DNA from: Mrakia gelida
Taxonomy: Eukaryota; Basidiomycota; Tremellomycetes; Cystofilobasidiales; Mrakiaceae
Length of the DNA stretch: 64,000 nt
Direction of reading: 5' to 3'
Assembly (NCBI GenBank): GCA_024345305.1
Contig: BRON01000008.1
Span: 868,001 to 932,000 of the forward strand
The first letter of the stretch is position 1, and each line of letters begins with the position of its first letter. The notes under the pieces were generated by a model. That model did not search any database, was not told the DNA's origin, and saw only the letters and a program-made list of their open reading frames with translations. Below are positions 4,483-51,095 of the stretch, piece by piece. The translations under genes were made by a program, and so were the position numbers.

Positions 4483-6323
4483 ATGTCAACGGTAGCAGCA
4501 TCGACTTCCCAAGCCGAGGGATCCTACGACGGCCTCCTTCCCTCCCCTCCCGCCTCAGCTCAAGCTCAACCTCCTTCTCCTTCCCTTCCTTCCTTTCCCT
4601 CCCCTCCCAACATCGACTCGGAGCCCGTCGCCTCCTCTTCGGCCAATCCGGACGACGCGGGAATCAAAGCTCATCTCCTGGTCGTGACTCCGACGTCTGT
4701 TGAAGCTGAGGGGGCAGCGAGAGGAAAGGGGAAGGGAAGGAAGCCTCGCAAGGCTGAAGACGAGGGAAGGTCAGTCCGTCTCATTGATATCTTTCTCTCG
4801 CCTATGCATCCCCTCGACGACAAGGTGTTACGAGCTCAGGCCCATACCTTCGCTTCTCCACCCATTCCCAGCTCCGGATCAGCGCTTCCAACCTCAGGAC
4901 GATGGTCCGAAACGGAGGAGGACGCCCTCGCGCGTTTTCTTTCGTCGATAGACGACTACTCAGCTGTCGACGAGGACGGTAGGGACGCGTTTGATGGGTT
5001 CGCAACGACGAATGTAAGCCCTAGCTCTACTCTGCCTGCACACTAGCGCGAACCCATCCCGAACCCGAAGACTGACAGCTCTTTTTTCCGCTCTCCTCTC
5101 CCTTGGGTCGCTCGTTCCGACAGCACACTCGACGAACTGCTAGAGCCTGCAGGATGCATCACCGATCTTCCAAGCCGACGTTCGATGCTCTGATCGAGAG
5201 GATTCACGCTGGATTGCCTATGAGGGACTCACCTGAGAGGGAGGAGGTCGAGGAGAAGCCGGTCGATAAGAAGGGGAAGGGAAGGGAGGCTGAGATTGTT
5301 CGGTTCGTCTTCCTTCATTGCTGCTTTCGGATTGTTCGCGACCTCTGAGAGACTATGATCTGACTGAGTTGTTTTTGTTGCTCTTCCTCCAGTCCCGTCG
5401 AGGAAGATCTCGTGGAGGACGACGGCGTGGAGAGCTTGGACGAGGGAGAACTCGTCGATTACGATCTGTGAGTCTCGTCGGTCTCTATACGTTCGTCACT
5501 CTAGCACGCTTCTGACCCCTTTCTCTCTCTCTATGACGCGAGCAGAGGAACCCGTCCGAATTCGTACAACGCTGTGGAGGAGGCCGACTTTCGACGATGC
5601 CTTCGAGAATCCGACACCGTCGTCGAAGCGTCGAAGAAGTTCAATCTCCTTCATCCGGACAGGAGCTACGAGTCGATCCGAAGGCGACACAACAGACTTT
5701 CGGCAAACTACGAAGGAATCCTCACGAGAAAGCTCGACGGACCGACGTTCGTGAGAGGAGGAGCGCCGTATTGGTCTGAAGAGGAACAGGAAGAGTTGGC
5801 TCAGCTTCTCGCCGGATCGAGCGACGATGGGATCGCCATCTACCGAGTCTTCCAGGAGTCTGTTAGTCCTCTCTCTCTTTGATATATAAACGCTCGCGTC
5901 TCACCGTCGCTGACGCCGTCTTTGCTTCTCCTTCTTCCTCCTCTCGTCGCGTCCCTTTCCCTTCCTCAGCATCCAAGGAGGACGACCGCAGGCATCAGAG
6001 GTCAATACGATCGACATCGGAAAAAGTACGACCAGAGGATCCAAGCTATCAAGGACGGGGACTCGTCAAAACCTTCGCCGTTCATACGCGAGACGGCCAA
6101 ACCCAAATCCCGACTCTCTGCGTCTCCCTCGCCTCCTCCTCCCTCCTTCGTTCCCATCCCTCGATCTCAACCTCGTCCCTCTCCACCAAACCGTCCGACA
6201 TCACCACCGCCATCCCTCTCTTTCGCATCCTTGCTCTCCATCCCTAGGCTCCAGGCGTCGGCGGCTTCGAAGCCGTCCGTCCAAGTCGCGTCGTCGTCGT
6301 CGAGAAAGAGAACCAGAGTCTAG
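4483..6323 (+). CDS. Gene A: protein with three Rap1-type Myb-like repeats
   Basis: Exons 4483-5013, 5124-5302, 5393-5467, 5546-5861 and 5970-6323 join in frame to 484 codons. The Ser/Pro-rich N-terminus (about 1-135) carries a basic KGKGRKPRK patch. Three Myb-like units follow: (1) from about 140, RWSETEEDALARFLSSIDDY ending in a TRRTARACRMHH helix and FDALIERI; (2) from about 270, NAVEEADFRRCLRE ending in HPDRSYESIRRRHNRLSANY; (3) from about 335, PYWSEEEQEELAQLLAG ending in HPRRTTAGIRGQYDRHRKKY. An exon border falls just before the HPRRT helix, at the same place as in genes C and D. The tail is Ser/Pro-rich and ends RKRTRV. I see no BRCT or zinc finger. By architecture it is a nuclear DNA-binding protein related to the Rap1 Myb. 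Function is inferred only. An extra intron near 4769 is possible but not needed. Confidence 0.8.
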
Positions 6324-7034
6324 GGTCGCGTCGATTCGGGAACCAACTCCAACCCACACTTTCACCATCTATCCCTCCTCCAGCACTCCCCATCCCTCTT
6401 GCAACCATCATCATCCTCAGCATCATTCGTCGCATCGTCTAAACACGCGTCGCACGAATCCACCTCCCTCCCTCCCACCCTCCACTCTCCAGCAGCACCC
6501 GCTTCTCATCAACCACCGCACCATCAAAGCACTCTCACACTTTCACACTGCTCCTCGTCGTTCAGCTCCTCCTCCTCCAATCCCATCCCGTCGACGTCCA
6601 TCTCCCACTCCTCGATCAACCACCCCTCCTCGCGTCTCAAACGCTCTCCTCCTCTCAAGCCTTCGTCCCTCCGTCTTCTACCACTCTTCTCTCGGAACTC
6701 CGCCATCTTCTTGGTCCGATAAGAAGAATCGCTTGCACTGGGAGCGAGGGGAAGCTGGTGTGATGGTGGAGTCGACGCGAAGGGACAGGAGGGTGGGAGG
6801 AGTCGAGCTCGTCGGACGGAAGTGGCAGCGAAGGATGTATGGCAGACATTTGGGCGGGTCGGAGAGCTAGCCATTGTATCACTTACTTGTTGTTTTCTTC
6901 TGTTCATGAGTCTTGAACCTCTCAAAACTAAAAACGACTCCACGGAGCCAGACTCTAACGGACTTCGCTTCCTACTCCTCGACGCTCATCTCCTCCCCCA
7001 GCCATCCCTCCCTTCTTCCTTCCTTCTTCCTTCC
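6324..7034. other. Intergenic between genes A and B
   Basis: This is pyrimidine-rich, low-complexity sequence (6360-6720, TCC/CAT repeats) followed by more mixed sequence. No ORF here has domain-like content. It is probably the gene A 3' UTR plus the gene B promoter. Confidence 0.5.
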
Positions 7035-8301
7035 ATGTCCCATCCATCCAACGGAGAACAAGCCAGCAATGCCTGGTCCGGCATCCACTCCAAACTCTCC
7101 ATCTTCCTCGACGATGAGTCCAAGCTCACCGACCTCATCTCCCCAGGTTTGAAGGTGAGCTCGACCTTCCTCTCCTCCGTCCCTCCCTTCCTCCTCTCCT
7201 CGCTGAGCGTCCCTCCTTTCTCGTTTTTCTCTGAACGCAGACTCTCAACCCCCTCCTCGTCCTCGTCGATCGAGAGAAACTGGCCTCCCACGTCGTTCTC
7301 GGCTCTCACCCTCAACACCTCAAGATCAACCTCCTCCGCCAGAACTACCTCCTCTCCTTCAGATCCGATCTCAAGATCGTCACCTTCGACTGGATCTTCG
7401 AGTGTGCTCGACAGGGAAAGATCGTTCCCGAGGAGGGGTTTGAGCTCGTGGGGGAAGCAACGTTCAAGAGAGATGATACTACTATCAGTGGTTCGTCGTC
7501 GAGCGAGGCTGGTGAGCAAGGAGGAGGAGAAGGAGGAGCGAAGATGGAGCCGAGTTCAGAGAGGTGAGCTCGCCTTCTCTCCGGTTGTTGTATCTCTGTG
7601 AGAGTTGACAGCATTCTGACCTTCGTATCTGCTCTTCTCGCATCAGTCCTGAGCTGCCTAAGGATCACGACGATTCGACGAAACGAGCTCGCTCGACTGG
7701 ATCTGAGGCCGATGAGTTCGTCTCTTCTCTTCCCCTTCCTTCTCGCTCGAACAATGGGACTGACTCCTTCTCTGCTTGTTCGTGTAGCTCGGAGTCGAAC
7801 GCCAAGAAGGCGAAGGTCTCCGCTCCTACGAACGGAAACGCGTCGACCTCGGCGTTCGTCCAGCTCCACCCCATCTCTCCCACCCATCTCGCTTTCCACT
7901 GACCTCACGTCGTCCTTTGCTCTTAATCAAACAGAGCTACCAATGGAAACCCATCTCAGAATCAACAGACCGCTTCATCCTCGACGTCTCAAGCTAAAGG
8001 GAAGGGCAAGGAGGTCGGAGTCGAAGGTGAGCTCGAAGTCAACTCGCGTCGTTGTTCTTCTCCCATCCCCTCTCCGTCCTGACCAGCGCTACCCTCCCTT
8101 CTCTCAGAATCAAACCCGGCCGATCAACTATACGCTCACCTCGTCATACTCGCGGAAAGGGCTTCAGCTCCAGCCTCGACGACCCCTCCCAAACCCCAAC
8201 CCAACGCGACGACGACCTCTTCCTCCTCCTCGTTCTCCCTCCTCCTCGAAGGAGCCATGATCGGCGAGCGACTCCCTGGGTGCCTGGAGGGTCCCTACTG
8301 A
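7035..8301 (+). CDS. Gene B: BRCT protein, ORF stops at the first zinc-finger cysteine position
   Basis: Exons 7035-7154, 7241-7563, 7647-7715, 7788-7853, 7935-8026 and 8108-8301 join in frame to 287 residues. The N-terminal BRCT domain reads SKLSIFLDDESKLTDLISPG, then TLNPLLVLVDREKL, then SDLKIVTFDWIFECARQGKI with the conserved BRCT Trp. A basic Ser-rich linker follows (KDHDDSTKRARS, NAKKAKVSA). The short segment ADQLYAHLVILAERA may be a Myb remnant. The frame ends at TGA 8299-8301, exactly where paralogues C, D and E have the first Cys of a zinc finger. Sequence beyond the stop still encodes the rest of that finger (next entry). Two introns use GTTCGT donors (7716, 7854). It may be a truncated but expressed BRCT protein or a pseudogene. 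Confidence 0.7.
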
Positions 8302-8513
8302 TACTGGTGTGGTCTCTCCCCTCCAGAAAGGACCCGCTTCGTGCCGTTCGAGACGGAGAGGGGAGAGAAGGTCAAAGGGTGCACGACGTGTCGAAGTGGC
8401 TGGACGAGAAGATCACGGACCTCGGGCAGGACTCGAAGACGAGGGCGATAAGGTTGCTTGTGGAGGAAGGGGAGAGGAGGAGGAGGGTGCAAGTCCTTGC
8501 TCCGTACAAGTAG
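8302..8513 (+). pseudogene. Degenerate zinc-finger tail of gene B
   Basis: Immediately after TGA 8299-8301 the same frame reads YWCGLSPPERTRFVPF and reaches CTTC at 8380-8391, i.e. the second Cys and the second Cys pair of the family finger. Then the conserved continuation KWLDEKITDLGQD appears one frame away (from 8391), ending at TAG 8511-8513. Gene E has CLSCFKWLDEKI at the equivalent place, so the original reading was CTTC-x-KWLDEKI in one frame. There are therefore two lesions: Cys codon to TGA, and a one-base loss near 8391. Sequencing error is possible. A 36-nt intron (8291-8326) would remove the TGA, but it would also delete a finger Cys and would not repair the later frameshift. Confidence 0.6.
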
Positions 8514-8800
8514 CTCGGAGGTTGTTGTCGCGTCGTTCCGTTTCGGTTCTTCCTTTCTTGGTCCGTTCGGTAGTCTACTAGCTCGATCTTGCTGTTCTGT
8601 TGGGTTCTTCGGTTCCTTTTTGTTCGATCTCAGATTTTACGAGCTTGTGTCCATGACGTTCTCGCTACCGATGTATACACTATGCGAAACGAAAGCCCAA
8701 AAGTCACCAAAAATCGAAAGCCTCGACGCGTCGACCGCGTCCTCCCTCTCGCAACCAACAAACGAAAACGAGAACCATCTACTAGCCCGTCTCAGCCCTT
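8514..8800. other. Convergent 3' flanks of genes B and C
   Basis: This is the tail-to-tail region of genes B and C. It contains one GACGCGTC palindrome at 8725-8732. I see no additional gene. Confidence 0.5.
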
Positions 8801-11057
8801 CTAGCCTCTCTCCACTCCCCTCCCAAACTTCTCAACCCTGATCTGCTCTCCTCTCCCCACTAACCTCTCCGTCTCCAAAACCAATCTTCTCTCCTCCCTT
8901 TCCGCCTTCCCTCCCCTCCCTCCCTCATCCTCATCTTCATCAACCACCATTTTCCTCTCCATTCCCTTCTGGAAGTACTTGACACACTCGCAGCACGCTT
9001 CGAGCTCCCTCGTGTCGATCCTCGAAGCGTCGTCCTCGAACGCGAACGACGTCGTGTCGTACCACTTCGCGTCGGTGCTGGAGCAGAAGTAGCACCAGGG
9101 CTCGTCGTCGGCGCAGGCGGTTGGTTTCGTTCCGACTTGGAGCAAGGAGTTGGGTTGGGAAGGAGGGAGGGAGGTCTGATGATGGTCGTCGTGGGTGGAG
9201 TTGGAGGACGACGCGCCGAAGAACGAGAACGAAGACGAGGAAGGGTTGGAAGTGGTTGGGAGGACGGGTTTGATCGGCGAGGAGGTGAGCATGGTGGTAG
9301 AGCTGGAAGGAGAGGCGGTGGAGGGGCGGAACGGGTTGGGGAAGGAGTGGGACGCCCGTTGAGGGAGACGTGACGGGATGTCGAAGTTGGGTTTGAAGGA
9401 GGAGGAGGAGGAGGCGTGGGAGGAATAGGGATGATGAAGAGTGTTTGAAGATGGACCGAGAGGTGGAGAGGAGCTGAAGGGTGGTGCGGAGATGGTGTTC
9501 GTGGTCTTCTTCGACGGTCGAGGGTTCGACTCCTCCTCCTCGTACGACGACGCGTTGCAAGGTCGAGCGAGATGAGGTTCGAACGAGCTGCCTCCGACAG
9601 ATCCTGTCTTGTTCCTCGACGACTCTCCAGAGTGAAGAAGCTGGAACGCGCTCTGGAGTCGATGCTGCTCGTTCGCGGGTCGTCCCATGTCGACGTCGTC
9701 CGAGGAAAGAGATCGTCTCCTCACCGGCTTCTTCCCGTTCTTGCTTGCCTTCGTGGGCGACGACGAGTTTGCTGCTCGGATGGCTCGGATGACGGGATCG
9801 AACTTGGCCCTGTTGGAGTCGTAGTGGGTGTTCACTGCTGGTGCCGCTCGAGTAGGGTTCTGACCAAGAATCGAGACAGAAAGAGAGTCGTGTCAGGACG
9901 TGAACGCGAGGGGTTCGAGAACGGCGACCTGAGACAGAGGCGAAGCACTCACCCTCCTCGAGAACTCGTGACACATCGAGAGCTTGGTCCTTTCAGGAGA
10001 GACCAGAGCGAGTAGCCCAGCGAGTTCCGTGTCATCCTCCTCAGTCCAGCGATTGGTAGCGAGCGGCCTGGCCAAGTCGAAGAGATGGACGAGAAAGAAG
10101 CGCGTCGACTCAACTCGAAGGATGAACTTGTGGAACGCGTCTGATCTGACTTCCGACTGCTGCATGACGGTCTTGAGGTAGCTGATCTCCTGTTGGGAGT
10201 AAGAGCTCCTGGGGAGAGGAACACGAGACGAGCCGTCAGCTCTACGAGAAGAGTGGAAGGAGAGACAGCGAGTCGAGTCGCGAAGAACGGGATCGATCCA
10301 CTGACCCTTTTCCATCTGCCCCTGGGCCGTCTTCGGCATCATCGCTCTCCTCAGAGTGACTGAGAGCGTAAAAGCTACGAGGCAAGAAGACCGTCAGAAG
10401 GTTTAGAGCCATCTCACAGGAAGAGGGTGAGGGAGAAAGAGCAAGCTCACTCAAGATCCTCCTCGTCCTCCTCTTCCTTGTCTGAACTCAACACGACCTC
10501 GTACTCGTCCTCCGGCTTCGCCATCTCGGCGTGGTAAGACTCTAGGTACCAGTAGAGCGTCACGAGATGCTGACCCTCTCGAACGAAGGGACGGGAGTTG
10601 ATAAGGACGCAGCCTTCGTCGAGGATGAGATGGGTCGCCTCCGAAGCGTCTCGAGTGGTGATATCCGGAAGACCAGCCTCTTGAAGTCGAAGCTAAGACA
10701 TGGGAGGGAACAAGGAAGGTCGGTACGAGTCAGAGGAGGGAGAGGGGAGGGAGGGAGAAGAAATGGAGCCGAAAAGGAGTGGAGCGGAGAAGAGAAACGA
10801 GTTGAGCTCACCCTGAGATCTCTCTCGATGTTGCAAGCCTTGAGGGAGCGTGAATCGAAGTGAAGCCTGAGGGAAGGGTCGCTGAAGGGCCAGATTGATC
10901 GAAGAGAGATGGTAGGAGCTACGGGAGGCGATTTGGAAGACGAGGAAGATGGAGAAGAGTTGGAGGGAGGAGGGGAGGGACGAGGATGAGCTTGAGCTTG
11001 ATGAGCTCGAGCAGGTTGGAAGGAGGAGTGATCCGTTCGCTCGGGCTGACAATCCAT
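8801..11057 (-). CDS. Gene C: BRCT, Myb and GATA-like zinc-finger protein
   Basis: The start is ATG 11057-11055. The BRCT-like domain begins FDSRSLKACNIERDL and continues after an intron as LRLQEAGLPDITTRDASEA, THLILDEGCVLINSRPF and HLVTLYWYLESYHAEMAKP, followed by an acidic stretch. Two Myb-like units come next. The first, weak, is SYSQQEISYLKTVMQQ. The second is clear: NRWTEEDDTELAGLLALV, splice, then NPTRAAPAVNTHYDSNRAKF and DPVIRAIRA. A Ser/Pro-rich linker of about 200 residues leads to a C-terminal finger, WCYFCSSTDAKWYD, then CCECVKYF about 30 residues on. The stop TAG is at 8803-8801. It is divergent from gene D across 410 bp. It is probably a nuclear DNA- or chromatin-binding protein (inferred from domains). 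Exon borders around 10240-10480 are approximate. Confidence 0.78.
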
Positions 11058-11467
11058 CTTTCGAAGACGATACGGAAGAAGACGATGGTGATGGTTAGGG
11101 TCCAAAAGGAAGGCGACGTTCCTTTCGAAAAAGGCGGAGAGAAGAAAGATGGGAGACAGGGCCGACAGGGGTGGAGCTCGCGAAGCTCAACTCTTCCAGC
11201 GTCGCCCCTGCCCTTCCTCGCATTTTTTCCTTGTTTGGGTATGGAGGTTTCTCAAATAAATATAGTATTCATCCTCTGATTGTCAGCTCTCCGAAATTTT
11301 CGCATCTTCGTTCCTGAATTGGCCACTCAAAGACGGATCTGACCTTCGACGTCCCTCCTCCTCCTCCACCCACAACAAGCTCATCCGTCCCTTCCAGCTT
11401 TGGATGCTCGCTCTCCTCCTTCAGCCTCATCGATAGTCACATCTACCACTTCCTCTCCTCTTCCACC
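11058..11467. promoter_or_regulatory. Bidirectional promoter of genes C and D
   Basis: This 410-bp gap lies between the divergent starts of two paralogues (ATG 11057 minus, ATG 11468 plus). It contains an AT-rich patch (AAATAAATATAG near 11256), the only such sequence nearby, which is a plausible core-promoter element. Co-regulation of C and D is inferred from position only. Confidence 0.5.
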
Positions 11468-13749
11468 ATGTTCTCTGAAGCTCCCGTCAAGAGTGAACTG
11501 GACGGTCCTACGACTGCATCTCCTCAAGCTCCCCATCCAGCTGCTCCCCTCCCTCCTCCCCTTCCCAACGCCACCGCTTCTTCTTCTTCTTCCACTCCCC
11601 TCGTATGGCCAGCCGGCTCGGGACTAGTCTTCTACTGGGATCCTAGGACTGCGCTTGCTAGGAGAACCTATCAAGGTCTGATGGTAAGTCCCTGTGTTTC
11701 TCTCTCGCTCGAAGAAGGGATCAGCTCGAGCTCACCTTCTCCCTCCCTTCCCTTCCTCACCTTTCGTTCGTCTCTCTTCTCAGAAATTCACCAAGGGAAC
11801 TCTCGTCAGCACTCAATGGATCTATGAGGCCACTCACGTTCTCATTGACGTCAACAAGCCTCTCTCGTCCAGGGATCGAGAATACTACAAGGGCAAGCTC
11901 ATCCTCACCCTCGATTGGGCAAGGGACTCGGTCATCGAGGGAGGTCCCAAGGACGTCAACGACGAGAACTATCAGGTCGTTTGGGAGCAGGAAGAGGGAG
12001 GAGGAGAGAGAGATGCTCAGGTTGTTGGGGTGGCGAAAAAGAAGGGGAAGAAGAAGGCGAGGGAGGAGGTTAGGCGAGCTTCGACGGAGGAGCCGGGAGG
12101 AGAGGAGGACTCTTCTTCTGGAGACGACAGGTGAGCTTGCGGAGTGTTCTTGTTCTTCTCTTTCCTACATCGAGCTAACTAGACCCGTTTTGGTTCCTCA
12201 GACCTCTTCACAAGCGATCTGCTCCCGTTCGGGGACCGGCAGGGCGATGGACAGAGGAGGAGAACTTGGTGAGCTCGCTTCACTCCTTCAATCCTTCCTT
12301 TCTCTTCTCGCTGACCCTTCCACCTCTTGCTTCCTCGTGTACAGGACTACGCTCGCTTCATGGCTGCCTACCCGAATCCGAACTGGGGACACTACCACGA
12401 CAGCGTGAGTCTTCTTCGAACGCTTCGTCTCGAACGAACCTCGTGCCGCTCGCGTCCTCACCTTTCTCGCTCATTTTCCAGCATCCCAGCCGCTCTCTCA
12501 GCGCCATCGACCAGCACTCTTACCACAAGAGGGCCGTCATCGATCCGCTCATCCAAAAAATCAAGAAGGAAGCCAACGGTCGATCAGTCGTTTACGTTCA
12601 TCCCATCGTCCCCTCAGCCTCCTCCTCCTCCTCTCGTCCCAACCCTCCTCCCCCTCGACCTTCGAACAACGACAACAACGACGACTTAGATCGATCGTCA
12701 GGAGACGAAGCTCACCACGTCGCTCAACCTTCCTCCTCGAACCTCGCGACGCGTCCCATCTCCTCCAACTCGAGTCTTCCGTGCGTCAACTGCAGATGCA
12801 AAACATCATCCTCTTGGCATCGATTGAAGGAGTTCGATACTGGAGATCAGCAGCTCTGCTCCGGGTGTCGATCCGCGTGTGAGTATCTTTTTCCTTCGCT
12901 TTCTCTCGCTCTTCTTGCTTGTCTTCTCGTCGACTCGCCCGAAGACTGACGCGCCCGTCTCGTTCTTTGACTCCTACTTCTGAACCGCCAGTCTACGCGT
13001 CCAACAAGAAAGACGGATTCGAGGAAGGGAAACAAGCCCTCGCTCGAAGGAGGGAAAGGATCCTCGGTCCCGACGCATCCGATCTCGACTTGAGCGACGA
13101 CGATCAACCTCGACGAGCCACCATCACCACCAGCTCCTCCTCCAACCACGCTTCTTCTTCCGCTCGTCACTCCCTCCCCAACACCACCTCCACCTCCTCC
13201 TCTCATCACCACCAATCTTCCTCGTCCTCGCATCATCGATCTTCCCTCCCCGGTCCGAGCACCTCGTCGTACCTCGCGCCTCCTCCTCCTTCGCACAAAC
13301 GAGCCCGCTCCACCAACGAAGACGTCGATCCAAGACTCGAGAAACGACGAAGGAAACTCGCCAAGATGGGAGCATCCGCGTCCGCTTCAACCTCCCACGC
13401 TTCAACGTCCTCCAACAATCACAATCACAACGCTCCTCCTCCCTCCAACAACCACCGCCTTCCCTCCTCCTCACCCTCCGCCCCCCCCGACCCCTTCCTC
13501 CTCGTCGGAACCAAACCCTCCGGCTGCACCACCAACCGATGGTGCTGGGTCTGCGGGTCGGACTCCTCCTCGCGGTACTCGAAGATCAATCTTCGGGAGA
13601 TGGGGCAGGGGAGAGTGGTTTGTGGGGAGTGTTCGGCTTGGAGGAAGGAGAGGAGGAGGGAGGAGATGAGTGAGGAGGAGTTGGTGGAGTTGACGAGGGC
13701 GTTGAGGAGGAGGGGGGAGGGGATTAGGAGGGGGTTTGTGGAGGGTTAG
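11468..13749 (+). CDS. Gene D: BRCT, Rap1-type Myb and two GATA-like zinc fingers
   Basis: Exons 11468-11683, 11784-12130, 12202-12268, 12345-12404, 12482-12878 and 12992-13749 join to 614 residues. BRCT (about 55-150): GLVFYWDPRTALARRTYQG, STQWIYEATHVLIDVNKPL, LILTLDWARDSVIEGGP. A basic linker follows (KKKGKKKAREE). Myb (about 200-260): GRWTEEENLDYARFMAAYP, then HPSRSLSAIDQHSYHKRAV and IDPLIQKIKK. Zinc finger 1 (about 331-360): CVNC, a Trp at the GATA position (SSSWHRLKEF), then CSGC. Zinc finger 2 (about 547-575): WCWVCGSDSSSRY, then VVCGECSAWRKERR. Between the fingers lie a Ser/His/Pro-rich region and a nuclear-localisation-like cluster (HKRARS, EKRRRKLAKM). This is the most complete family member and the best reference for it. 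It resembles Rap1 in carrying BRCT plus Myb, but the GATA-like fingers are not part of known Rap1. Role unknown. Confidence 0.85.
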
Positions 13750-14151
13750 GAAGGGAAGCGGGGAGGAGGGAGGGTGGGTGGGTGGGATGGAGGGTTTGGA
13801 GGTTGGCTAGTTTATCACTCGTGTTTTTCTTTGATTGTTGTGTTTACGATTCACGATCATGCTTTTCTCTCCGTCTCTGTGTAACGTTGCATCGCGAGGA
13901 AAGAAAGAGCGGGGGGACAGCGAACTCGACGCGTCGAGCTCTTTCGTTCCGTTTCGTTCGCGTCCCTCTCGGTTTCACCCTTCCTCTCTCCCCTTTCCCT
14001 TTTTTCAAGCCACCACAGGTCTCAGCCGGCTTCGTACTCATGCAAATCATCACACCACCAACTCTCCAACAAACGACTACCACAAACGAAACGAAACCAA
14101 AACAAAAACGCGTCTCCTCCCTCCCTCCCCCCTCCTCTTCCTCCTCGCCGC
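13750..14151. other. Convergent 3' flanks of gene D and the makorin gene
   Basis: This is tail-to-tail UTR sequence. It starts with a G-rich run (13750-13800) and later becomes C/A-rich with ACAAA repeats (14045-14110). A GACGCGTC palindrome sits at 13928-13935. I see no gene. Confidence 0.5.
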
Positions 14152-17100
14152 TCAATCCAACTCATCCATCTCCCCATACCCACCCAACGCCCCCAACACC
14201 CTCTCCAACTCCTCCGCCTCTCGTGTCGGCCTCGCCAACACCGTCGCACGCTCAACCTCCAACTGATGTTGATCCCTAGCTGCTCGTCTCCTTTGCCTCC
14301 TGTTTCCTCCCACGCCAGTTCCAGCTCCACTGGCCCCAGCAGCAGCAGCGTTGCTTGACGAAGCCGACGCGCTGTTCAGGCTCGACGCGTTCGCGTTCGT
14401 CGTTCGAGCGGGAGGGTGACTCCCAAACCCAACGTTCGCTCCGACGTTCGAGTAATCAGGCATGGTGTTGGCGAGCGGGACGCCGAACATCCCTCCTGCG
14501 AGGGCTCGGACGGCTGCTCCTAGGAAGGAGGGTGGTGAGGGAGGAGGAGGGGCGGATGGGGTTGGGGTTGAGGTTGAGGCGGAGGTTCGAGGTGGGTTTG
14601 AATTTGACCTGGAGGTGGGAGCTGGACGTCGTTGACGGGAGTCGACGAGGGGAGGGGGTCCGTCGTCGTCGCTGCTTTGAGGAACGGGAGCGGGAGGGAG
14701 AGGTTGGTTGAATCGTCGTGGGGAAATGAGGGGTGGTGGACCGTCTGAGTCAGAGGATGGGTCGTTGGTGTTGGTGGTAGGTGGTGGGGCTCGAGGTCGT
14801 GGAGTGGTGGAGGATCGAGATGGACCTCCGACGGGGACGAGGCCTGGTGGGCCGTCTGAATCGGATTCGCTCGCGGCGGAAGGTCGTGGGGGAGGGGCTC
14901 GGGCTCGAGGAGTAGTGGTGGTGGTGGATCGAGAAGGACCTCCGACGGGGACAAGTCCTGGTGGGCCGTCCGAGTCGGAGTCGTTTGCGGAGGAAGGTCG
15001 AGGAGGAGGTGCTCGAGCTCGAGCTTGAGGAGTGGTGGAGCGTCGAGAGGGACCTCCGACGGGGACAAGTCCTGGCATGGAATCCGAGTCCGAACCGTTC
15101 GCGACGGGAGGCTGAGGTCGAGGTGCTCGACGAGCAGCTTGGGGATGGGAAGGTCCAACTCGAGGTCGGACGGCCACGAGTCCTGGCATCCCTGGATCCG
15201 AATCGGAGTCGTTGGCGGCGGCAGGAGGAGGAGCTCGAGGAGGAAGAACGAAGTTGGCTGGAACCCTCACGAGTCTCGGTAGACTCGAGTCCGTATCCGA
15301 TCCCGATCCCGATTCCTCCTCCACACGAGCAGCTCTCGACGGGGCTGGGCCACGAGGAGCCCGAATAGGAACGAGAAGAGGAGGTCCACCGTCCGAATCC
15401 GACGCGTTCGAGTCCCTTGCCGTTCTCGCTGGAGGACGCCTTGCACTGTTGCTGTTGTCCGCGGATCGGTTCCTCGACGAGATTGGGATGAGAGGAGGAG
15501 GTGACGAGTCCGATTCCGAATCCGACGCGCTCTCGGGGTCGTACGGTGGGTGGGAGGGTGGAGGAGGAGGTCGACGACGGGAATCGACGAGGGCGGGCAT
15601 GGAGGAACTGGAGGCGTCCGAGTCGTTTCCTCCTGCGGGTCGAGAACGGGGACGAGGAGCTCCTGCTCGAGGGAGAGGTTGACCGTTGATGGCGACGAGA
15701 GGAGGCATTCCGCCTCCAGCAGTGTTATCGGTTCCTCCTTCGGCGAGACCGAGAACGCGACTGAAGATCTCGGTGAGGTAGGCTGCTGAGTTGGTAGGGT
15801 TGGAGCTGAGAATAACGAGCGCGAGGAAGGGCAAGGAGGGCCAACAAGTCAGTACCGAAGACGAGTAAGACGAGCGACGCGTTGAAATCCAAAGCATGCT
15901 CGAGGTTTGGACTCACCCTCCACCTCCCTCCGCAAGCATCGCATTCTCCATCGAATTCAAGAACCAGTCCAGCCCTCCGGGACCTGCCAGCCCACCTCCA
16001 CCGGGAGGCCCTCCAATCCCGAACGGGAAGATGCTCCTCCCTCCCGCGCCTAGGAAGTTTCGAAGTGGATCGTTGGAGGAGGAGGAAGGAGGTCGTCGAG
16101 ATTTGTGACGAGCCATGGACGATTGGACGGTCGAATGGAAGAGGAAGGGGGTTGTCGTGTTGGGGAGGAGGTGGGCGTAGAAGCTAAAAACGTGGGCCGT
16201 TGAGAGAAAGGAGAAGGAAGGGAGGAAGAAGTCAGCAACGCGGGCGAGGAGTCGACAGAGGGTGCCGTTTGACTTCGAAAGGGACGAGGGAGAGGGACAA
16301 CGAACCAGCTATCAGCGTAAGGGCAGAACGGATTCGTCGTGCGAGACTCGACGAAGTAGCGACAAGGCTTCTGCTTCATCGCTGACTTGTAGTTGGCGAT
16401 GATCGTTCGTTTCTCCTCTCCTTCAGCGGCGAATTTGGACGAGGGTGTGATGAAGTCGGATTTGCCTCGACAAAGAGGGCCTAAGAAAAAACAGCGAAGA
16501 AGGAAGAAAGTCAGCGAGGTGCGTCGAAGAGAGGAAATGGAGGAGGAGACACGCGAGTCGACGGTAGGGATGAGAGAGGAGGGAAGACGAGACTGACAGA
16601 GTTTCGCGTTCGTCTGAGCGGTATCCTTCTTCTTGGGATCTCTCCACTCTCTGATGCAGCTGTGAACGAGAAGATAGTAGGTCGTTAGCTCGAGCTAGGA
16701 CCGCTTTGAGCGTTCGTCGACGCGAGACGAGGGTCCAACGAAAGCGCGACGCAGACGAGGATCAAAGCTTAGAGACCAGACTCACGAGAGACAGAAGATG
16801 TGAGAGCAGTTTTCTGATTCCGTGAAGCGAGAAAAAGCATGTCAGCGAACTGAAATCGAACGAACGTGGACGAGACGTCGCCGTCGCGAGCTCAGTCAAC
16901 TCGCAACAGCGAAACGGAAAACGAAGCTCACCTAGCAGCCCAAAGAACTCTGGATTCCCTTCAAAGCACACCGAGCAGCTCAGCTCGGACGTCTCATCTC
17001 CGCTCCCTTCGCTTTTTGGAGAAGGATCCGTAGAGTCGGCAGGGTGAGGGAAGAGGCAGGTTGTCGAGCGATGGCAGTAGCCTGGATCGGAACGAAACCA

Positions 17101-17697
17101 GCAAGGTTGAGGGTCAGTTTCGCGGACAAATTTCTGAGGAGAGTAGAGAGTGATACGAAGGGTAGCTCACCCCGTTGCCAGAACTTGCACACAGGTCGAG
17201 TGGGTTCCTTCTTCGGCTTCTCGAGGACGGGAGGCGAGTCGGCTGTGGAGGCGGGAGGAGGAGCGGTCGAGGACGCTTTCTCTTTGCCCTTCCCCTTCCG
17301 TTGTTGCTGGTCGAGGAGTCGTTGCGGCTTGGTTCGGGCGTTGATACCAGCGTTGGGAGGTCCTACTGATCCAGGAGCCTCTACATATCGAGGAGAAACG
17401 GAGGAGAAAGCGAAGGGACGAGTCAGCTCGACGAAAGCGGGGAGGGATGGCGATGGCGGGCGAGCTCGTTCGTTTTCAACAGAGCGAACAGAGAGATCTG
17501 AACGAACCATGAACGAATCTACACGACTGTACGCATCCCTTGTCTGTGTTGAAGAACTTGCATACGAGAGGTTTGGGAGGAAGAGGGGAAATTCGAGCGG
17601 GACGAGAGGTGGAAGGAGGAGGAGGGAGGGTGGAAGTCGAAGCCGTCGGTTGAGCCGAAGGAGTGAACGGAGTCGTTTTCGGGTTGAAGGTTGACAT
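14152..17697 (-). CDS. Makorin-type RING/CCCH E3 ubiquitin ligase with long repeat tail
   Basis: ATG 17697-17695 opens MSTFNPKTTPFTPSAQ. The order of domains is makorin-like. CCCH 1: VCKFFNTDKGCVQSCRFVH. CCCH 2: VCKFWQRGYCHRSTTCLFPH. A C3HC4 RING is spread over four exons: CSVCFEGNPEFF, NCSHIFC, CIREWRDPKKKDT, LCPLCRGKSDFITP. Then comes the makorin linker EEKRTIIANYKSAMKQK and CCCH 3, PCRYFVESRTTNPFCPYAD then CFYAH. The CCCH 3 exon runs in frame, without stop, through an internal Met at 16116-16114 into a Gly/Pro-rich segment. After one intron it continues into a long disordered region with about 11 copies of an acidic [DS]-P-x-L-[VI] motif. The C-terminus is basic (NRRQRRRAARDQ) then charged. 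The RING and CCCH ligands look intact. Total length is about 900 or more residues, far longer than usual makorins. Confidence 0.85.
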
Positions 17698-17958
17698 CGA
17701 CAAGAAGGAAGGTTGACCCTCTGGGTAGACTCTTTGGGTTGTTTTCGATGCTGGTGGTTTGGGTGGACGGGAGGAGGGAGGGAAGGCGAGCTCGTTCGAC
17801 CACGCGAGCGAAAGAGGGGTCTCGCGATCTGACTGACGTTCCTTCCCTCCTTTGCTTCCTTCCTCCAACCCCAACAGACAGGAACATCTGTTCTACCTCG
17901 GATACCCTCTCTTCTCCCTGCCTTTGGATCGACAGACGCGAAGTCCTGCCTGAAACGA
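17698..17958. promoter_or_regulatory. Divergent promoter makorin / SH3 gene
   Basis: This 261-bp head-to-head gap lies between ATG 17697 (minus) and ATG 17959 (plus). It is short enough that both genes must share control sequences. I recognise no specific factor site. Confidence 0.45.
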
Positions 17959-19755
17959 ATGGCCGTTCCTTCTTCCTTGTCGAGTGAGCTTCCTTCCTTC
18001 CCTTCCCCGTCCGTCCTTCCTTCCTTTGTCCTCCAACTCATCTTTCAATCCATCCACTAACTCGTTTCTTTTCTTCTCTTTCGCATCTACAGAAGGATCC
18101 CCTCCATTCTCTCCCGCTCCTACTTCAACGACCAACGTCTCGTCCTCCTCGCCGACCTCACGCTCTCAATCTCCTCACTTCCCCTCTCCCAGCTCGACGT
18201 TCATCCCCCCTCCATCAGAGAACGAAGAGTTCGAGAGAATCATGAAGCTCAAGGTAGAATCCTCAACGGCCAGTAGTAGATCAGCATCGTCCTCTCGTCG
18301 GCGGACAGCTTCAGGAAGGGAGGAAGGAGGAGAGGGATCAACCCAAGAGGAGGACGACCAGCGTCCATCACCACCTTCCGACCTCGCTCAACAACAACAA
18401 ACAACAGACGAGGAAGGCAACCCTCTCCCTCTCATCATCGAAGGAGGAAAAGAACGGAGACTAGGAGATCTCGACGCCAACGACCAGATGGAAACCGACC
18501 TGTTCGAAGGAGGAGCAGGAGGACAAGCTCGTATCGACGTCGACCAAGGAGGAGATCTCACCCCTCGGCTCCCTTCAAGCGAAGATCGCGACCTCGAAGA
18601 CCCTTTCAACTCCTCAACTCACCCAAACAGAAGAATATCAACAGCTTCCTCCCTTTCCCAACCCCACCCACTCGACATGCCTCCCATCCCACCTCCCTCT
18701 CACCCCACTCCATCAACCTCAACCTCAGCCCACGACCTCGTCTCCTCCTCCTCCCACCACCCTCTCCCAATCCCAAACCGTCTCTCCACCTCCTCCTCAG
18801 CTTCCTCCTCCACTTCAGCCTCAAGACCAGCCCCTCCCAACCCAACCACCTCCTCGTCCTCATCAAGAGCTTCCCTCAACTCCACTACTTCCTCCTCCCG
18901 CTCACGCTCAGGAGGTCGTCCCGCCCAACCACCTCCTCCAATCCAACCTCCTCGCTCACCCTCCCCTTCCCCACCACCACCACTCTCCATCCGAGACTAC
19001 GCCTTCTTACCAGGGGACGAACGTCACATCGGTCAAGGTCCCATCCGAGCAGAGATCTTCCTAGCTCGAGCAGCAGCTCTCAAAGCAGCCGAAGCTGCCT
19101 CGTCTTCTACCAACAACGGCTGGGGAGGAGGAGGAGGTGGGGGGTTTGGCATGGGTGGTGGACGACGCTTCGGGTACGGAGGAAGGCAGGACGATGATGA
19201 GGATGAAGAGGAAGAGGAGGATGATGAGGATGGGTACGAGGATGAGTCGGACGACGACGAGGGGAGGTACGAACGGGAGGGAGATGGAGAGGGAGACGAG
19301 GAGCCGCTCTCAGCAGCCAGTTCAACGGGATCGTTCCCTCCTCCCGAACCGGAAGGGTCGAGGTATCAGGTCGATCCGGAACCGGGGGTTTATAGAGCTC
19401 TTTATGCGTGAGTCGAGCCCCAAAGCCTCCCTCCTCCCCTCTTTCCTCGCTCGACGCGTCTCCCTTGTCTCCGCTCCCTCCCTTCCTCCTAACCCCACAC
19501 TGACCCAGGCCTCTCCCCCTTCCACCTCGTTCGCTCGCTCGTTCGTTCGGTCACAGCTTCCAATCCGAAGCCCCCGCCGAGTTATCCCTCTCGGAAGGCG
19601 ACCTCGTTCGCGTCCACGCCTCAGGAGGAGTAGGCTGGGTGGTCGCGACCTTGCTCATCCAGAACCCGGCGTTCAGTGCTCCAGAGGGGGAGATGGTAGA
19701 GACGGGGTCGCAGGGGTTGGTGCCGTTGGGGTATTTGACTAGTGCGCCTCAGTAG
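17959..19755 (+). CDS. C-terminal SH3 domain adaptor (Nbp2/Skb5-like)
   Basis: The first exon is 25 nt (17959-17983, MAVPSSLS). Exon 2 starts at 18093 and is one long frame to 19407, and the last exon begins at 19557. The N-terminal third is Ser/Pro-rich with a short conserved-looking ENEEFERIMKLK. LSIRDYAFLPGDERHIGQ resembles the motif preceding SH3 in fungal Nbp2/Skb5 proteins. A Gly-rich patch and a strongly acidic run (about 19185-19265) precede the SH3 domain: GVYRALYAFQSEAPAELSLS, EGDLVRVHASGGVGWVVA, GLVPLGYLTS. The protein ends SAPQ. The SH3 ALYDF, ExD and GW signatures are clear. Nbp2-like proteins tether phosphatases and kinases in cell-wall and HOG signalling, but assigning this one to that family is tentative. 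Confidence 0.75.
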
Positions 19756-20184
19756 TGTAGAGTTGGGTTGCTTTCTTCTTCGTTCATTCGTTCGTTCGTT
19801 CGTTCTTTGCTTTGCTCTTCGCTCGCGTTTCTCGCTTTCACTCCTTTCGTTTTTCGTCGCTGCTTTGCTTTGTTTCTTCCTTCTCTCTCTCTCTCTCTCT
19901 ACTTTCTAGCTCCTCGTTTAAGTTGCCCTCGTTCGTTCGTTTTCTGACCGGCCCTGTTCTCTCTCTCTCGCGCGATGGATGGATGGAATCGCTCTTCTCG
20001 TCTTGCTCCAAAGCACCCTCTCCTCAGGAGCATGAGTTCGAGGACTTTATAGAAGCTGAGTCGGTGAGGGTCGTCAACAATCCAAGCTCGGAGGCAAACT
20101 GGTCTCCCTCAGACTGCTCTCCTTCGAAAGCTCGAGCTCGCATCTCCCTTCCTCCCTCTCTTCACCCTCTTACCCACCCCAAGG
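19756..20184. repeat. Intergenic with TTCG and CT microsatellites
   Basis: This lies between the SH3 gene and PIG-S. It holds an imperfect (TTCG)n tract near 19781-19806, a (CT)n tract near 19883-19900 and a (GATG)n run near 19975-19985. An alternative upstream start for PIG-S in this interval cannot be excluded, because the frame preceding the chosen ATG stays open for a stretch. Confidence 0.55.
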
Positions 20185-22567
20185 ATGTACATTCTCCTCT
20201 CCTTCTGGACCGTCATTCTCTTCTCAATACCATTCTGGTGGATCTCAGCTTCAATTGAACGACTTCCTCTCAGATCCCTCTCGCCAACAGCTCGTCAATC
20301 CCTCGAGGTGAGCTGATGAGCTCGCTCCTTCCTTCCCCTCTCCCCCTTCCTCGTTCTGACCCGCCTCTTGGTTGGTTTCGGGATGGAACGGCAGACTCTT
20401 CGTTTCTCCGAAAACGTCGTGATCAGTGTGTCGTCGGGGGAAAGCTCGCTCGACGAGGAAGAGCTGGTGGAAGGGGTGAGGAGGGAGCTTGAGCTTCTTG
20501 GACGAGGGAAGGGAGGCGATGAGATCTTGGTTTCTACGAGGAGCGCTTGGGACCTTCTATGTGAGCTTCGAGTTTCGCTCGCCCTTCTTCTGTACATGGA
20601 GACGATGCTGACCTCCTCCTGCTTTGATTGACTAACAGACAACGCGAGCTTGAGCTCGAGCTCATCACCATCACCTTGGGAGGTCATCGTTCAGCCCTCC
20701 GCCTCTCCCCTCCATCCCATCACTCACCTCCCGCTCAGCCCCTCGGACACCTTGCTCGGCTCCGTGGGAGACTCGAGCTTACATGTTCACGCTTCTCCTA
20801 GCAGCTTTGGTTCGTCGACTCGTCGTGCTTCAATCCCTTCGAAGTGAAGAGCTGACCGATCTCCTCCCATCGCTCGTTCGACTCAGCCAACCTCCCAACC
20901 TACCTCTCTCAAACCCTCTCCCACCTTCTCCCCACCTCCGAGCACCTCCTCGCTTCTCAAGATCCGAAGGTAGCCAAGTTCTCGGATCACTACACGCTTG
21001 CGTTCACGCTCTTGCTGGAGGATGTGACGGAGGGAGAGAACCCTTTGCACTGGGAGATTGAGAGGAGTTTGGAAGGTGTGTCGCTGCTCTTCTTGAAGCT
21101 CACAAGAAGCTGAGGGTGTAATCGTTCGCGCTGACGTCGCCCTCCTCGTCCTTCCCTTCGTTGCTCGCCCTTTCCAGCGACGATCCAACCCCTCCTCGAC
21201 GCGCTTTCCCCTCTTCACACCTTCACTCTCGAGTCCCAGATCCAGTACCACTCTCCACTCTCTATCACACCCGTTCAGCGCTCTTACAGCATCCAGGACG
21301 AGACATCGACAGACGAGGAAACAACAACCTCGACGTCGACGTGGCTCGTCGAGAAGGAGGACACCAAAGCTTTCGTCAACTCGGAGCAATGGTCCTTAGG
21401 ATCTCAAGGAGTCGTCGATGACGGTCCGACTCTTCAGTTCATGGTTTTCGTGCCCAGAGGAGAGAAAAGACCGTTGAGGTTCGAGGCTGAGGGAGAAGGT
21501 GAGTTTCTTTTTCGCGCGTCGGTTCCGCGAGACTGGGTATTCTTTCTCCAGGCCGGCTCTCTTCTCTCGAACGCTGCTGACTCTGCTGACGTCCTTGATC
21601 GCGTTTCACGAGCAGACAGAACCTCCCTGTCCTTCCTCATCCCCCAACAAGGCTCCCTAGTCATCTACAACCCTCCCTCCCACTCCACCTCCTCCTCAAC
21701 CCTCACCCTGCCCCTCCTGCATCACCCCCTCACCTCCCACCTCCACCACCTCCGCCGACTCCTCGGTATCCCCTCCTCTCCTTCTTTCCTCCCTCCCAAC
21801 ACCATCTTCGCACGCAAATCGTGTCTCGGTCGCCCAGCGAGTAGGATAACAAGGTGGGAGCTGGCGTGGTTGGCGAGAGCGAGGACGGTGGAGAACGTGA
21901 GGGATTCGGTTGGGGGTGTCATGGGTCTGGAGAGGCTGGTGGGGAAGATTGGGGAGATGAGGGTTGGGAAGAAGGTGAGGGATGATGTGGCTGGAGCGGT
22001 GGGGGAATTGGAGGAGGTGAGTTTGCTTCGCGCTCGTGTCCTTTTTCCGTTGACGTTGTCGAAGCGAGATTAGGAGCGAGGCTGGCTCTCCTTCGCCTTC
22101 GTCTTTGTCTTTTACTGACCTTGTTTACGTTCCTTGTTGTTTTCCGCGTCCACAGATCGTCGAATCCTCCCCATCCTCGCCGTTCGAGATCTTCCCTCGC
22201 TCGTCGCGTGCTCTCGCTCTTTCCTCGAGAGCGTTCTTCAACCCGACTATGCTGGGGCTGCTTTACTTCGTGAGTGTCCCCCTTTATGCTTTTCAACTCT
22301 ACCTCTCCGTTTGTTCCATCTGCCCGCGCCTCCTCGCCCTCGACCTGACTGACCTTCGTCCCGTCTCGTTCGCAGCCCGACGAGCACAAGTACGCCGTCT
22401 ACACTCCCCTCTTCGCTCCCGTCGGAGTCCCTCTGGTCGTTGCTTTGGTCAAGGCGATCAAGAAGCGGAGGAAGGATCGGGCGGAAGGGGCGAAGACGAA
22501 GAAGGAGAAGGTCGTCGTTGTGGTGGAGGAGAAGGAGAAGGACGCGTCGATATCCGCTTCGATTTGA
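20185..22567 (+). CDS. GPI17: GPI transamidase subunit PIG-S / Gpi17
   Basis: Subunit of the ER GPI-transamidase complex that attaches GPI anchors to proteins. The first exon carries the N-terminal membrane anchor (ILLSFWTVILFSIPFWWISA) directly after ATG 20185. Luminal segments follow: TLRFSENVVISVSSGES, WEVIVQPSASPLHPI, NLPTYLSQTLSHLLPTSEH, KFSDHYTLAFTLLLED, then IQPLLDALSPLHTFTLESQ and GPTLQFMVFVPRGEKRPL. The C-terminal conserved block is SRAFFNPTMLGLLYF, then PDEHKYAVYTPLFAPVG and VPLVVALVKAIKKRRKD, i.e. a second membrane span and a basic cytosolic tail ending before TGA 22565-22567. About nine exons. One donor at 20810 is GTTCGT. It is convergent with gene E. Topology and motif order match the family well. 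Confidence 0.9.
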
Positions 22568-22751
22568 TGGCTCGTGAGCTCAGATCATCGTTGACGAGCG
22601 CGGAAGAAGAAGTGAACATGCAGATGCAGAGTGTAAGGTAGGTATCGTGAAGAGCCATGAAGGGTATAGACGAACAAGAGTCTGAGAGAGCGGGTACGGA
22701 AGAATGCAAAGCGAAACCAACCAAAGACGCGAGCGAAACAAAGAACCAAAA

Positions 22752-25333
22752 CTATAATTCCCCACCCCTCCACTCAACAACCATCGTCCCACCATCCTCC
22801 GCTCTCACCCTTCCTCTTCTCTCCCTCAACCCATTGACCTTCCACATACACAGCGCCCAAGCCAACCTCCCCCCATCCTCCAACGCCTCGACCTCTAGCA
22901 CAGTGTCCCCTCGCTCGTCGATCTTCTCGTCCAGCCATTTGAAGCACGATAGGCAGATTGGGGTTTGTTGGATGAACTTGTCGACCGCGGCTTCTTCGAA
23001 GCCGCAGAAAAAGCATGCTGGGGCGAAAGAGGTTGGGAGGAAGGATGAGGGGACGCCGAGTTCGAGGAAGGAGGGAGGTTCGAAAGGTTTGGGGGGTGGA
23101 AGGTCCGGTGGTGGGGAGAGGGAGGAGGAGAGTGATCGACGTGAGCGTGGAGAGCGGGCGAAAGGGGAGGGGGCGGGTGGGAGAGGAGAGGGTAGGGGAG
23201 GGAGAGGTAGAGGGAGGGAGTTGGATTCGGACGCGTCGACGATGGGCGGTGGTGGGGTTGATGCTTCCCTCGACGCGAGCCTTCTCCTCTTCGGTGATGG
23301 TGGTCCTGGAGAACGAGACGAGAGTCGGCTTGAGGATGGGGAGGGTGAGGAATCGGGGGTGGAGTATATGGAGTGTGTTGAACTGGAAGGCGTCGACGCG
23401 GAGGAGGAGGAAGAGTTGAGAGAGAAGGGAGAGTGATGCGATTTCTGTTGTTGCTCCTTCGTCTCCTGCTGGATGCCGAACATAAGGGTGGGCGCTATAT
23501 CCTCCTCGAAGTCTACGAGCTGCACCGTCTCCGTCTGGTTCGATCCATCAACGTGTTGCTCGATTTCGCCGTTCGCGACGTCGACCTCCGGCGAAAGCTG
23601 GACGTCCGTTGATGCCTCGAAGGTTGCAATCTGGAAATCCTCGACTGGGAGAGATTTCTTAAGTTCCAGTCCATTCCTGAAATTAGGGGCCGAACGAGAG
23701 CTGATCAGCTTCGAGCCTCGTTCGGGTTCGTTCGAGTCGCGTCGACAATCGTAGCTGATTGACCATGGACTCACCTCATTTCCAGGAACATCTCCTCCAG
23801 AATCTCGATGCTGAGAGTAGGCTCGTCCTCCTCGGTAACAGGCTCCACTGATCCCATCTCGGTCGGCACCTCGACCGGTTCCTCCAGTTCCTCGTTCTCG
23901 TCGTCGTCCTCCAGCGGAAGTTCGGCGTTGGCTGCTTCCTCCAGTGTCTCGACTTCGGGGCCATCAATAACTCCGGTATCCATTGATTGAGCGCTGGAGA
24001 AGACGTAAGGTCGGTCAGCTCGAGCAATTTCGTCTCGTTCACAAGTCGCGTCGAGAATCAGATGACTCACCTCGACGGATCCACCTCTAACTCCTCGATC
24101 TCATGACTAGGTTGACTCTTCAATGCCTTCAGAAGTTCTATGAAGAGGGAGATCTTCTCTCTGAACCTCGTCCTCCACCAATCAGCGGTCTGGTTGGGCT
24201 GTCGCGTCGGAATGAACGGGCGGGGAAGGTCAGCTCTTCTCCGCCTTCGAAGGACCGAACGTACGAGACTAGGAGGCTGGACTCACATAACCTCTGACGT
24301 AGAGATCAAAGGAGTCCCGTCCCTCAGCGTCTCGAGGCCAGGGACTGACGTTCGGACCCATAGCGTGGAGGAAGGTCGCGAACTTGTCGTCCGACGGCTC
24401 CTCGGAAGCGATGAACGGGGAATCCGAAGGTAGAGGGCTTAGTCGGAAGACGTCTGTGTTTCAGTACGATGTTACTGACCCGAATCCACTGGAAGAAGGT
24501 CAAAGAAAGCTGCTCAACTCACTTCGACACGTCCTCGTCCTCGTCCCCTGACTCATCACCTCCCTCTGACTCGACGCCAGCTGCAGCCTCCGCTTCCCCC
24601 TCAACTCCAGCCACAGCCCTGGGCTCTTCCTCCTCCAGAGGTTCCATCGCCGGCTCAACCTCCTGGACGGCCTCGACGGGGATGTCCTCCACCTCGTTCG
24701 CGTCGTCGAGAAGAATCGAAGTCGATGCGAGAACCATCGACGTTGACGGCTCCTCCTCCGGAAAAAGTGTCGCAAGGACTGAGTTGGAGACCAGCGGGTG
24801 ATAGAGGTAGTCCGTTTCGTGCTGCCATCGCCCCGAGAAGATGCTGTCCTTTATCCATCTAAGCTGAAGGAGGAATGGCGGCCCAAGAGAGGATCCCTGA
24901 TCTTGAAAGAACCGCTCTCCGAAAGATGAGGTGGGATCCACGAGAACGTGAGTTGCTTGGGGGAGGTGTCTGGTGACTAGAGGAGCTTTCCGGCTACGTG
25001 TGAGAGTCTGCGAAACGAAACGGAGCGTTAGCGTGATCCCTAAAAGATGAAGAGGGAGGGCGAGAAAGAACGAACGTCGACTTCTGCTTCCAGTTTCCGT
25101 GCCTTCGCACAGGAAGGATCGAAGTAGAACAGGAATCCTTCAGATCCGTCGGGAGCGTTGTTAGGTGAGAGATGTGATGGTGGTGGGTCGAGGTGGATAG
25201 AAGGTATGACGAGTGAGGAAGAGGGGAAGGAAGGAGGAGGACGGTGAGCTCGACCTCGAGCTGAGGAAGGGCGAGGAGGAGGGAGGTAGATGTCGTCCGC
25301 GGGTCTGAGTTGAAGGATGTTCAGAGAGAACAT
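22752..25333 (-). CDS. Gene E: BRCT, Myb-like and zinc-finger protein (B-like)
   Basis: ATG 25333-25331; first exon to 25076 with a GTTCGT donor. BRCT: GFLFYFDPSCAKARKLEAEV, TLTRSRKAPLVTRHLPQATH, VLVDPTSSFGERFF, LRWIKDSIFSGRWQHETDY. A long acidic region (about 24520-24730) follows. A weak Myb-like unit comes next: SDDKFATFLHAMGP then WWRTRFREKISLFIELLKAL. After a second acidic stretch and a Ser/Pro linker there is a C-terminal finger, CFFCGFEEAAVDKF then CLSCFKWLDEKIDERGD. The stop is at 22754-22752. KWLDEKI is shared only with the broken tail of gene B, making B and E the closest pair. The splice after the first acidic region (about 24480-24545) is unresolved: the obvious donor there gives the wrong phase, so an upstream donor must be used or the model is wrong. 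Confidence 0.75.
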
Positions 25334-51049: not shown

Positions 51050-51095
51050 CGTTATCAGCACCAGTTCGCCACCACCCGCTCAGCAATCCTTCGTC

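Follow-up and report, generated by a model that had tools for sequence, protein, structure and literature searches.

A putative BRCT, Myb and zinc-finger protein family of about 46 genes, spread mainly along one contig of the yeast Mrakia gelida

The stretch of DNA analysed here, hereafter called the window, comprises 64,000 nucleotides of the cold-loving yeast Mrakia gelida (Cystofilobasidiales; assembly GCA_024345305.1, contig BRON01000008.1, positions 868,001 to 932,000). The contig, C8 in the following, measures 1,792,598 bases and represents 5.1% of the genome (34,857,517 bases in 25 contigs). Near its start the window carries five genes, A to E, which an original prediction made from the letters alone had described as a local family combining BRCT domains, Rap1-type Myb units and GATA-like zinc fingers. 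Judged from their sequences, the five are members of one family, which comprises about 46 genes and is nearly confined to C8. All five were spliced by hand from the raw sequence, considering both the reading phase and GT-AG introns, and their starts and stops coincide exactly with the predicted ones (positions in the window):

4483-6323, plus strand: gene A, exons 4483-5013, 5124-5302, 5393-5467, 5546-5861 and 5970-6323; 484 amino acids, all phases fit
about 5124-5192, 5652-5717 and 5970-6038, plus strand: third helices of the three Myb units of gene A, which has neither BRCT nor finger
7035-8513, plus strand: gene B, BRCT core 7271-7444, no Myb unit found, last intron uncertain
11057-8801, minus strand: gene C, exons 11057-10812, 10692-10451, 10359-10306, 10208-9953 and 9859-8801
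10659-10498, 9859-9794 and 9100-8921, minus strand: BRCT core, Myb third helix and C-terminal four-cysteine (C4) finger of gene C
11468-13749, plus strand: gene D, exons 11468-11683, 11784-12130, 12202-12268, 12345-12404, 12482-12878 and 12992-13749
11808-11972 and 12482-12550, plus strand: BRCT core and Myb third helix of gene D
from 12779 (crossing an intron) and 13537-13707, plus strand: internal GATA-like finger and C-terminal C4 finger of gene D
25333-22752, minus strand: gene E, exons 25333-25076, 25007-24523, 24437-24287, 24198-24071, 23993-23775 and 23676-22752
24977-24801, 24198-24133 and 23021-22854, minus strand: BRCT core, Myb third helix and C-terminal C4 finger of gene E

On splicing at GT-AG introns of 68-119 bases, genes A, C, D and E yield long uninterrupted proteins, the phases agreeing throughout; one acceptor in E (after CTAAG) is atypical. 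Gene B also splices into an open frame, apart from its last intron, which can be read as either 47 or 36 bases. A gene finder written for this analysis, which reads both strands with a splice and codon model, agrees with the hand models on most of A and on the internal exons of B to E, except that it divides one exon of B; its first or last exons deviate in several genes. Since it was trained on those models, the agreement is a consistency check only. An outside check exists for D, as the separately annotated Mrakia frigida protein P0001 is 51% identical to it over 607 columns. This alignment spans the Myb intron and the intron of the first finger, whereas the splice within the BRCT of D is not supported by P0001.

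When compared singly with Pfam, none of the five proteins, like other single family members, rises above any cut-off, and only profiles built from the family detect the domains. A BRCT profile seeded with B, C, D, E and P0001 (n = 5) was searched in the window and in 20 stretches preselected for earlier matches, where it found 29 segments. Its E-values for B to E range from 2.5e-16 (B) through 1.2e-18 (C) to 5.7e-24 (E) and are partly circular. As B to E are among the seeds, the independent support for the predicted BRCT domains is the match of the whole profile to the PDB: a profile of 27 of the 29 segments places BRCT proteins, including Pol mu, TOPBP1, DNA ligase IV and BRCA1, at the top of the 59 PDB sequences listed (best E 1.4e-6), a list from which the BRCT of Rap1 is absent. 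The Pfam BRCT model PF00533 gives six matches in the M. gelida genome, four of them off C8 and none in the window, and therefore misses the family to which A to E belong.

The Myb units bear out the prediction as well, with three in A (E = 3.8e-9, 7.9e-6 and 1.3e-7, from a profile seeded partly from A) and one clear unit each in C (1.5e-7), D and E (3e-6; C and E being seeds too), while none was found in B. Against the PDB, a profile of 22 units matches c-Myb at E 2.3e-5 (over the whole chain, single repeats being weak) and the SANT domain of DNAJC2 at E 0.003. The splice site noticed just before the HPxRT helix proved to be a rule of the family, as 33 of 39 such starts directly follow an AG, against a background of 7.4% of the positions in the exons of A to E. 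By these profile matches, B to E belong to the BRCT superfamily and A, C, D and E to the Myb/SANT superfamily.

C-terminal fingers were found as expected in C (E 6.2e-14), D and E (1.6e-5; C and E again among the seeds), D having a second, internal one. To call the finger of B broken was fair, because its tail (KWLDEKI) aligns to that of E and has no cysteines, at least on the longer of the two splice readings. The four cysteines are invariant in 20 aligned C-terminal fingers (chosen from 35 matches), and many of these fingers are followed by a stretch MGELERLAW; a finger match at C8:995472, not among the 20, has lost the first cysteine. Against solved sequences the C-terminal finger profile found nothing below E 0.14. 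The GATA-factor model PF00320, whose curated cut-off is 26.8 bits, matches one of the 20 C-terminal fingers (E 0.37, cut-off not reached) and three of seven internal ones, the best with E 6.1e-5 and 23.0 bits, again under the cut-off. The loop of the C-terminal finger differs from that of GATA factors and is longer.

That A to E form one family follows, at the level of sequence, from the BRCT common to B to E, the Myb common to A, C, D and E, and the finger common to C, D and E. Gene A is further tied to it by its first Myb unit, which shares 57% identity with its counterpart in the gene at C8:1462315, a member with BRCT, Myb and finger; by eye, the Myb types of these two genes, three units each, stand in the same order. 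In the usual protein of the family, a BRCT at the N-terminus is followed by one to about five Myb units, and a C4 finger lies at the C-terminus. Some members are without one or two of these three domains, so that the number of Myb units ranges from none to about five across the family, and D shares its extra mid-protein GATA-like finger with the genes at 991, 1191, 1261, 1388 and 1526 kb of C8. Among the modelled members without a BRCT is a gene at L042:20-2228 (C8:1053019-1055227, plus strand), whose open frame holds a stretch near the classical GATA finger (CSNCRTRRTSMWRRDSLGGPLCN, a weak match), and a full family member lies 336 bases away from it, tail to tail.

The genome searches, in which each match is an exon, several matches may be one gene or the query itself and scores were given to the best candidates only, place the family almost exclusively on C8, an unusual distribution. 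All five matches of the BRCT of D and all 20 of the Myb units of A lie on this contig, as do 13 of 14 for BRCT plus Myb of D (the remaining one weak, E 0.64), 22 of 23 for pieces of E (the remaining one weak, E 0.08), 75 of 76 for the protein encoded at C8:1462315 and 70 of 72 for that at C8:1260385. The only solid family gene elsewhere, at C1:2066310-2068875 (plus strand), is 39-44% identical to the C8:1260385 protein and could be a founder or an escaped copy. The 19 matches of a fungal zinc-cluster family used as control are distributed over 12 contigs, C8 not being one of them; that family may be older and may have had more time to spread.

When merged, the matches form 43 stretches between C8 528907 and 1665242, three of which hold two genes each. 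This puts the family at about 46 genes by sequence, some of them represented by no more than one domain or a weak match; a further weak match at C8:294697 (E 0.015) was excluded from the count. The lineage-specific expansion that had been proposed is thus supported and extends far beyond five genes, whereas the proposed local cluster is a fragment of a family dispersed over 1.1 Mb. The strand alternation noted at the locus does not exceed chance, as the 46 loci, 23 on each strand, form 28 runs where 24.0 are expected (p = 0.14).

The closest paralogues are often far apart on C8 and on either strand. This applies to 991497 (minus) and 1525455 (plus), whose BRCT domains are nearest relatives with 92% identity, as well as to the nearest relatives 1462351 (plus) and 1567173 (minus) with 85% and 992630 (plus) and 1043435 (minus) with 78%. 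Growth in which neighbours are most alike was considered and rejected, distance and identity being uncorrelated among the 29 BRCT domains (Mantel p 0.34). At the DNA level, pieces of at least 90 bases show 67-84% similarity between copies, by eye mostly within the gene; for the pair at 1488546 and 1564929 the likeness also takes in part of a neighbouring gene. Ordinary-looking genes are interspersed between the members, among them some that we take, by eye in the models, to encode ATP sulfurylase, a MYST acetyltransferase, beta-tubulin and a sodium/proton exchanger. Intrachromosomal rearrangement in fungi has been described as mesosynteny in Dothideomycetes (PMC3510045), and by analogy such rearrangement could give the scattered one-chromosome pattern.

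One could imagine instead that a mobile element with C8 as its sole target carries the genes, as near relatives lie far apart on either strand and two members are flanked by repeats. We regard this as very improbable, since by eye the similarity between copies mostly starts and stops near the gene or includes a gene next to it, no repeat common to many copies appeared when the window and the 20 stretches were compared (without a search dedicated to transposons), and one family gene lies on C1. The two repeats are a 96-base direct repeat (L038:2758-2851 and 7211-7306, 77%) around the gene at C8:832380, which is either chance or a trace of the movement of that gene, and an inverted repeat of about 1.2 kb (L049:1103-2260 and 8325-9501, 76%) around the gene at C8:1461970. 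The gene models in the latter presumably represent copies of an F-box-like protein, and the repeat resembles copies of another gene.

The only relatives found outside M. gelida are four proteins of Mrakia frigida, P0001 to P0004; a red yeast of the Sporidiobolales kind, as the mention of red yeasts in the original prediction might suggest, is not supported. The nearest BLASTP counterpart of P0001 is D; for P0002 these are the genes at 1567 and 1462 kb of C8, and for P0003 and P0004 those at 1260 and 1192 kb. A tree of BRCT domains was built on 65 columns, with 7 of its 30 inner branches starred. Its well-supported branches require a minimum of three changes between the two Mrakia species, and at least the branches of P0001 to P0004 seem to predate the species split. 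Outside the genus, no relative was found among 5.8 billion proteins by a search that needs shared five-letter words and in which, in two of three cases, about 8,000 candidates were scored. In a published analysis of family expansions in Mrakia (PMC12749792), neither the word BRCT nor Myb occurs in the main text, and the layout of BRCT, tandem Myb units and zinc finger is not described in the openly licensed literature that we searched.

The paralogue pairs measured show constraint. In nine pairs the ratio of nonsynonymous to synonymous substitution rates (dN/dS) is 0.26-0.47, with stretches below 45% identity dropped, which biases dN downward; the BRCT has the lowest ratio of the corresponding proportions (pN/pS) in seven of the nine. 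This bears on the view that the family consists of decaying copies or is an assembly artefact of one contig, as one might suspect from the missing finger cysteines of B, the lost cysteine at C8:995472 and the single-domain members. Apart from the constraint, the open spliced frames with matching phases, the four separately annotated M. frigida proteins and the ordinary-looking genes in between largely contradict this view, to which we give hardly any credence.

The same ratios bear on another possibility, namely that the family serves host defence by the logic of KRAB zinc-finger proteins, its copies recognising and silencing transposons or foreign DNA and being retained for that reason. It would be suited by the many diverged copies, which vary in their number of Myb units and carry fingers of two kinds, as well as by the window's own copia element, which looks intact. 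However, no excess of amino-acid change was found, pN/pS never exceeding 0.73 in any part of the nine pairs (compared over similar stretches, with base-contact positions not tested separately), and we consider the idea unlikely, if worth keeping in mind. The KRAB zinc-finger genes on human chromosome 19 are likewise a large DNA-binding family grown largely on one chromosome. They have other domains, however, and stand in tandem clusters, whereas the members on C8 lie singly or in small groups, with other genes between them, across 1.1 Mb, and distance does not predict their similarity. If the Mrakia proteins did bind transposons, they would be a fungal parallel to the KRAB zinc-finger proteins.

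The presumed copia element is a long terminal repeat element at 50823-55660 of the window (plus strand), whose one open frame (51096-55403) runs to 1435 codons. Its two 227-base ends are identical to each other, which indicates a recent insertion.

The original prediction further put forward, as a hypothesis, that the genes encode telomere- or chromatin-binding factors, and pointed to the layout of Rap1. The likeness to Rap1 (the TERF2IP family of fungi and animals) lies in a BRCT at the N-terminus with one or more Myb units behind it, and as an arrangement it holds for C, D and E, not for A or B. In the structures predicted for P0001 and P0002 the Myb units are well predicted, in line with the three-helix fold of the Myb/SANT superfamily. 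The C-terminal finger of P0001 has two helices and two strands and reaches a predicted local distance difference test score (pLDDT) of 58-90; for the BRCT of P0002 the score is 55-63 over the initial part and 73-78 over the second half. The structure comparison lists (Foldseek and VIA-align) contain Myb/SANT rows and weak BRCT and GATA rows, and known folds missing there are not thereby excluded.

From this likeness it could follow that the family represents Rap1 paralogues that bind telomeres or subtelomeres. In keeping with this, the model PF08914 (curated cut-off 27.1 bits) is weakly matched by two of the 22 Myb units (best E 0.0055) and by P0002 (14.8 bits, cut-off not reached), and the first Foldseek row of P0002 is the Rap1 DNA-binding domain (E 0.55, probability 0.66). 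In the structure comparison, however, Rap1 ties with c-Myb and SANT chains. PF08914 has no match in the genome, where no control matched either and introns break the Myb unit. The Rap1 C-terminal domain (RCT, Rap1_C) is not found in A to E at E up to 1, and its sole match in the genome, on C2, is weak and under the cut-off (E 0.127; introns could hide others). The lack of RCT alone does not exclude Rap1, since Rap1 of C. albicans is also without it (PMC6510891). The family also differs from Rap1 in its added C4 and GATA-like fingers, in having up to about five Myb units, and in its number: about 46 copies on one chromosome, where Rap1 has one or two. Duplicates of Rap1 are known, as in the two RAP1 genes of Hansenula polymorpha, which lie on different chromosomes (same source).

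The contig ends carry plain TTAGGG arrays (from the first 100 of 253 matches listed), and TTAGGG or its complement occurs in two of 21 regions upstream of family genes. These 21 come from 32 models, of which six with an uncertain 5' end, four without BRCT and one with a short flank were left out. About 46 copies on one chromosome are not what a telomere protein needs. Taken with the undetected Rap1_C and the TTAGGG arrays, they leave the telomere role unsupported, and we judge it improbable.

A shared upstream motif was also sought in the 21 upstream stretches. The best 8-letter word, CGAGCTCA, occurs in 13 of them and was dropped as a family signal because it resembles the reverse complement of the splice donor common here (GTGAGCTC). 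In the telomere search, an internal TTAGGG tract at C8:1741349-1741378 (minus strand), 51 kb from the end of C8, was the sole four-unit match on this contig among the matches listed; it is perhaps the trace of a former chromosome end.

From our point of view, A to E are best understood as members of a family of about 46 genes that expanded on C8 and encodes lineage-specific DNA-binding regulators with a Rap1-like layout, an explanation that we hold with guarded confidence to be the probable one. BRCT domains bind other proteins, while Myb units and GATA-like fingers bind DNA or proteins, and from the combination of the three we infer nuclear, DNA-binding proteins with a regulatory role. The third helix of the Myb units would contact DNA, with specificity added by runs of several units or by the fingers, and the BRCT would recruit a partner or pair the protein with itself, such that each protein could regulate transcription or chromatin in the nucleus in a sequence-specific manner. 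The family would have grown by duplication of single genes, at least once together with part of a neighbour, and the copies would have been shuffled along C8 by rearrangements kept within the chromosome.

Several points weigh against this explanation. The fingers reach the cut-off of no Pfam family, and the models of P0001 and P0002 are weak overall (mean pLDDT 51.5 and 56.7), the BRCT of P0001 being poorly predicted (about 40-57). No Foldseek match attains significance, the best having E 0.64 and 0.55. Because dN/dS was computed solely on stretches of 45% identity or more, its dN is biased downward, and the intrachromosomal shuffling is deduced from one Mrakia genome.

One could speculate further that the members serve C8 itself, recognising sequences of C8 in order to mark, pair, insulate or segregate it. 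Copies that leave C8 would then lose their use, and the family would stay where it is. If true, this would be a fungal counterpart of the chromosome-specific pairing or dosage systems of animals; plain intrachromosomal shuffling, however, explains the one-chromosome pattern without it, and we see the proposal as a long shot. With or without such a role, some 46 members of a probable DNA-binding family nearly confined to one of 25 contigs represent a natural experiment on how genes spread and are retained, and if the proteins bind their own chromosome, chromosome-specific regulation would become accessible in a small, culturable genome.

A link of C8 to the mating type was also considered and discarded, the STE3 receptors lying on C16 (homeodomain mating genes were not searched). 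The two STE3 pheromone-receptor genes, at 465013-466017 and 503471-504508 of C16 (plus strand), are 38 kb apart, and this pair is worth a look with regard to the mating system of this yeast. Finally, the window contains at 14728-15240 an imperfect tandem repeat (73% over 408 bases) within a gene for a Pro/Ser-rich acidic protein.

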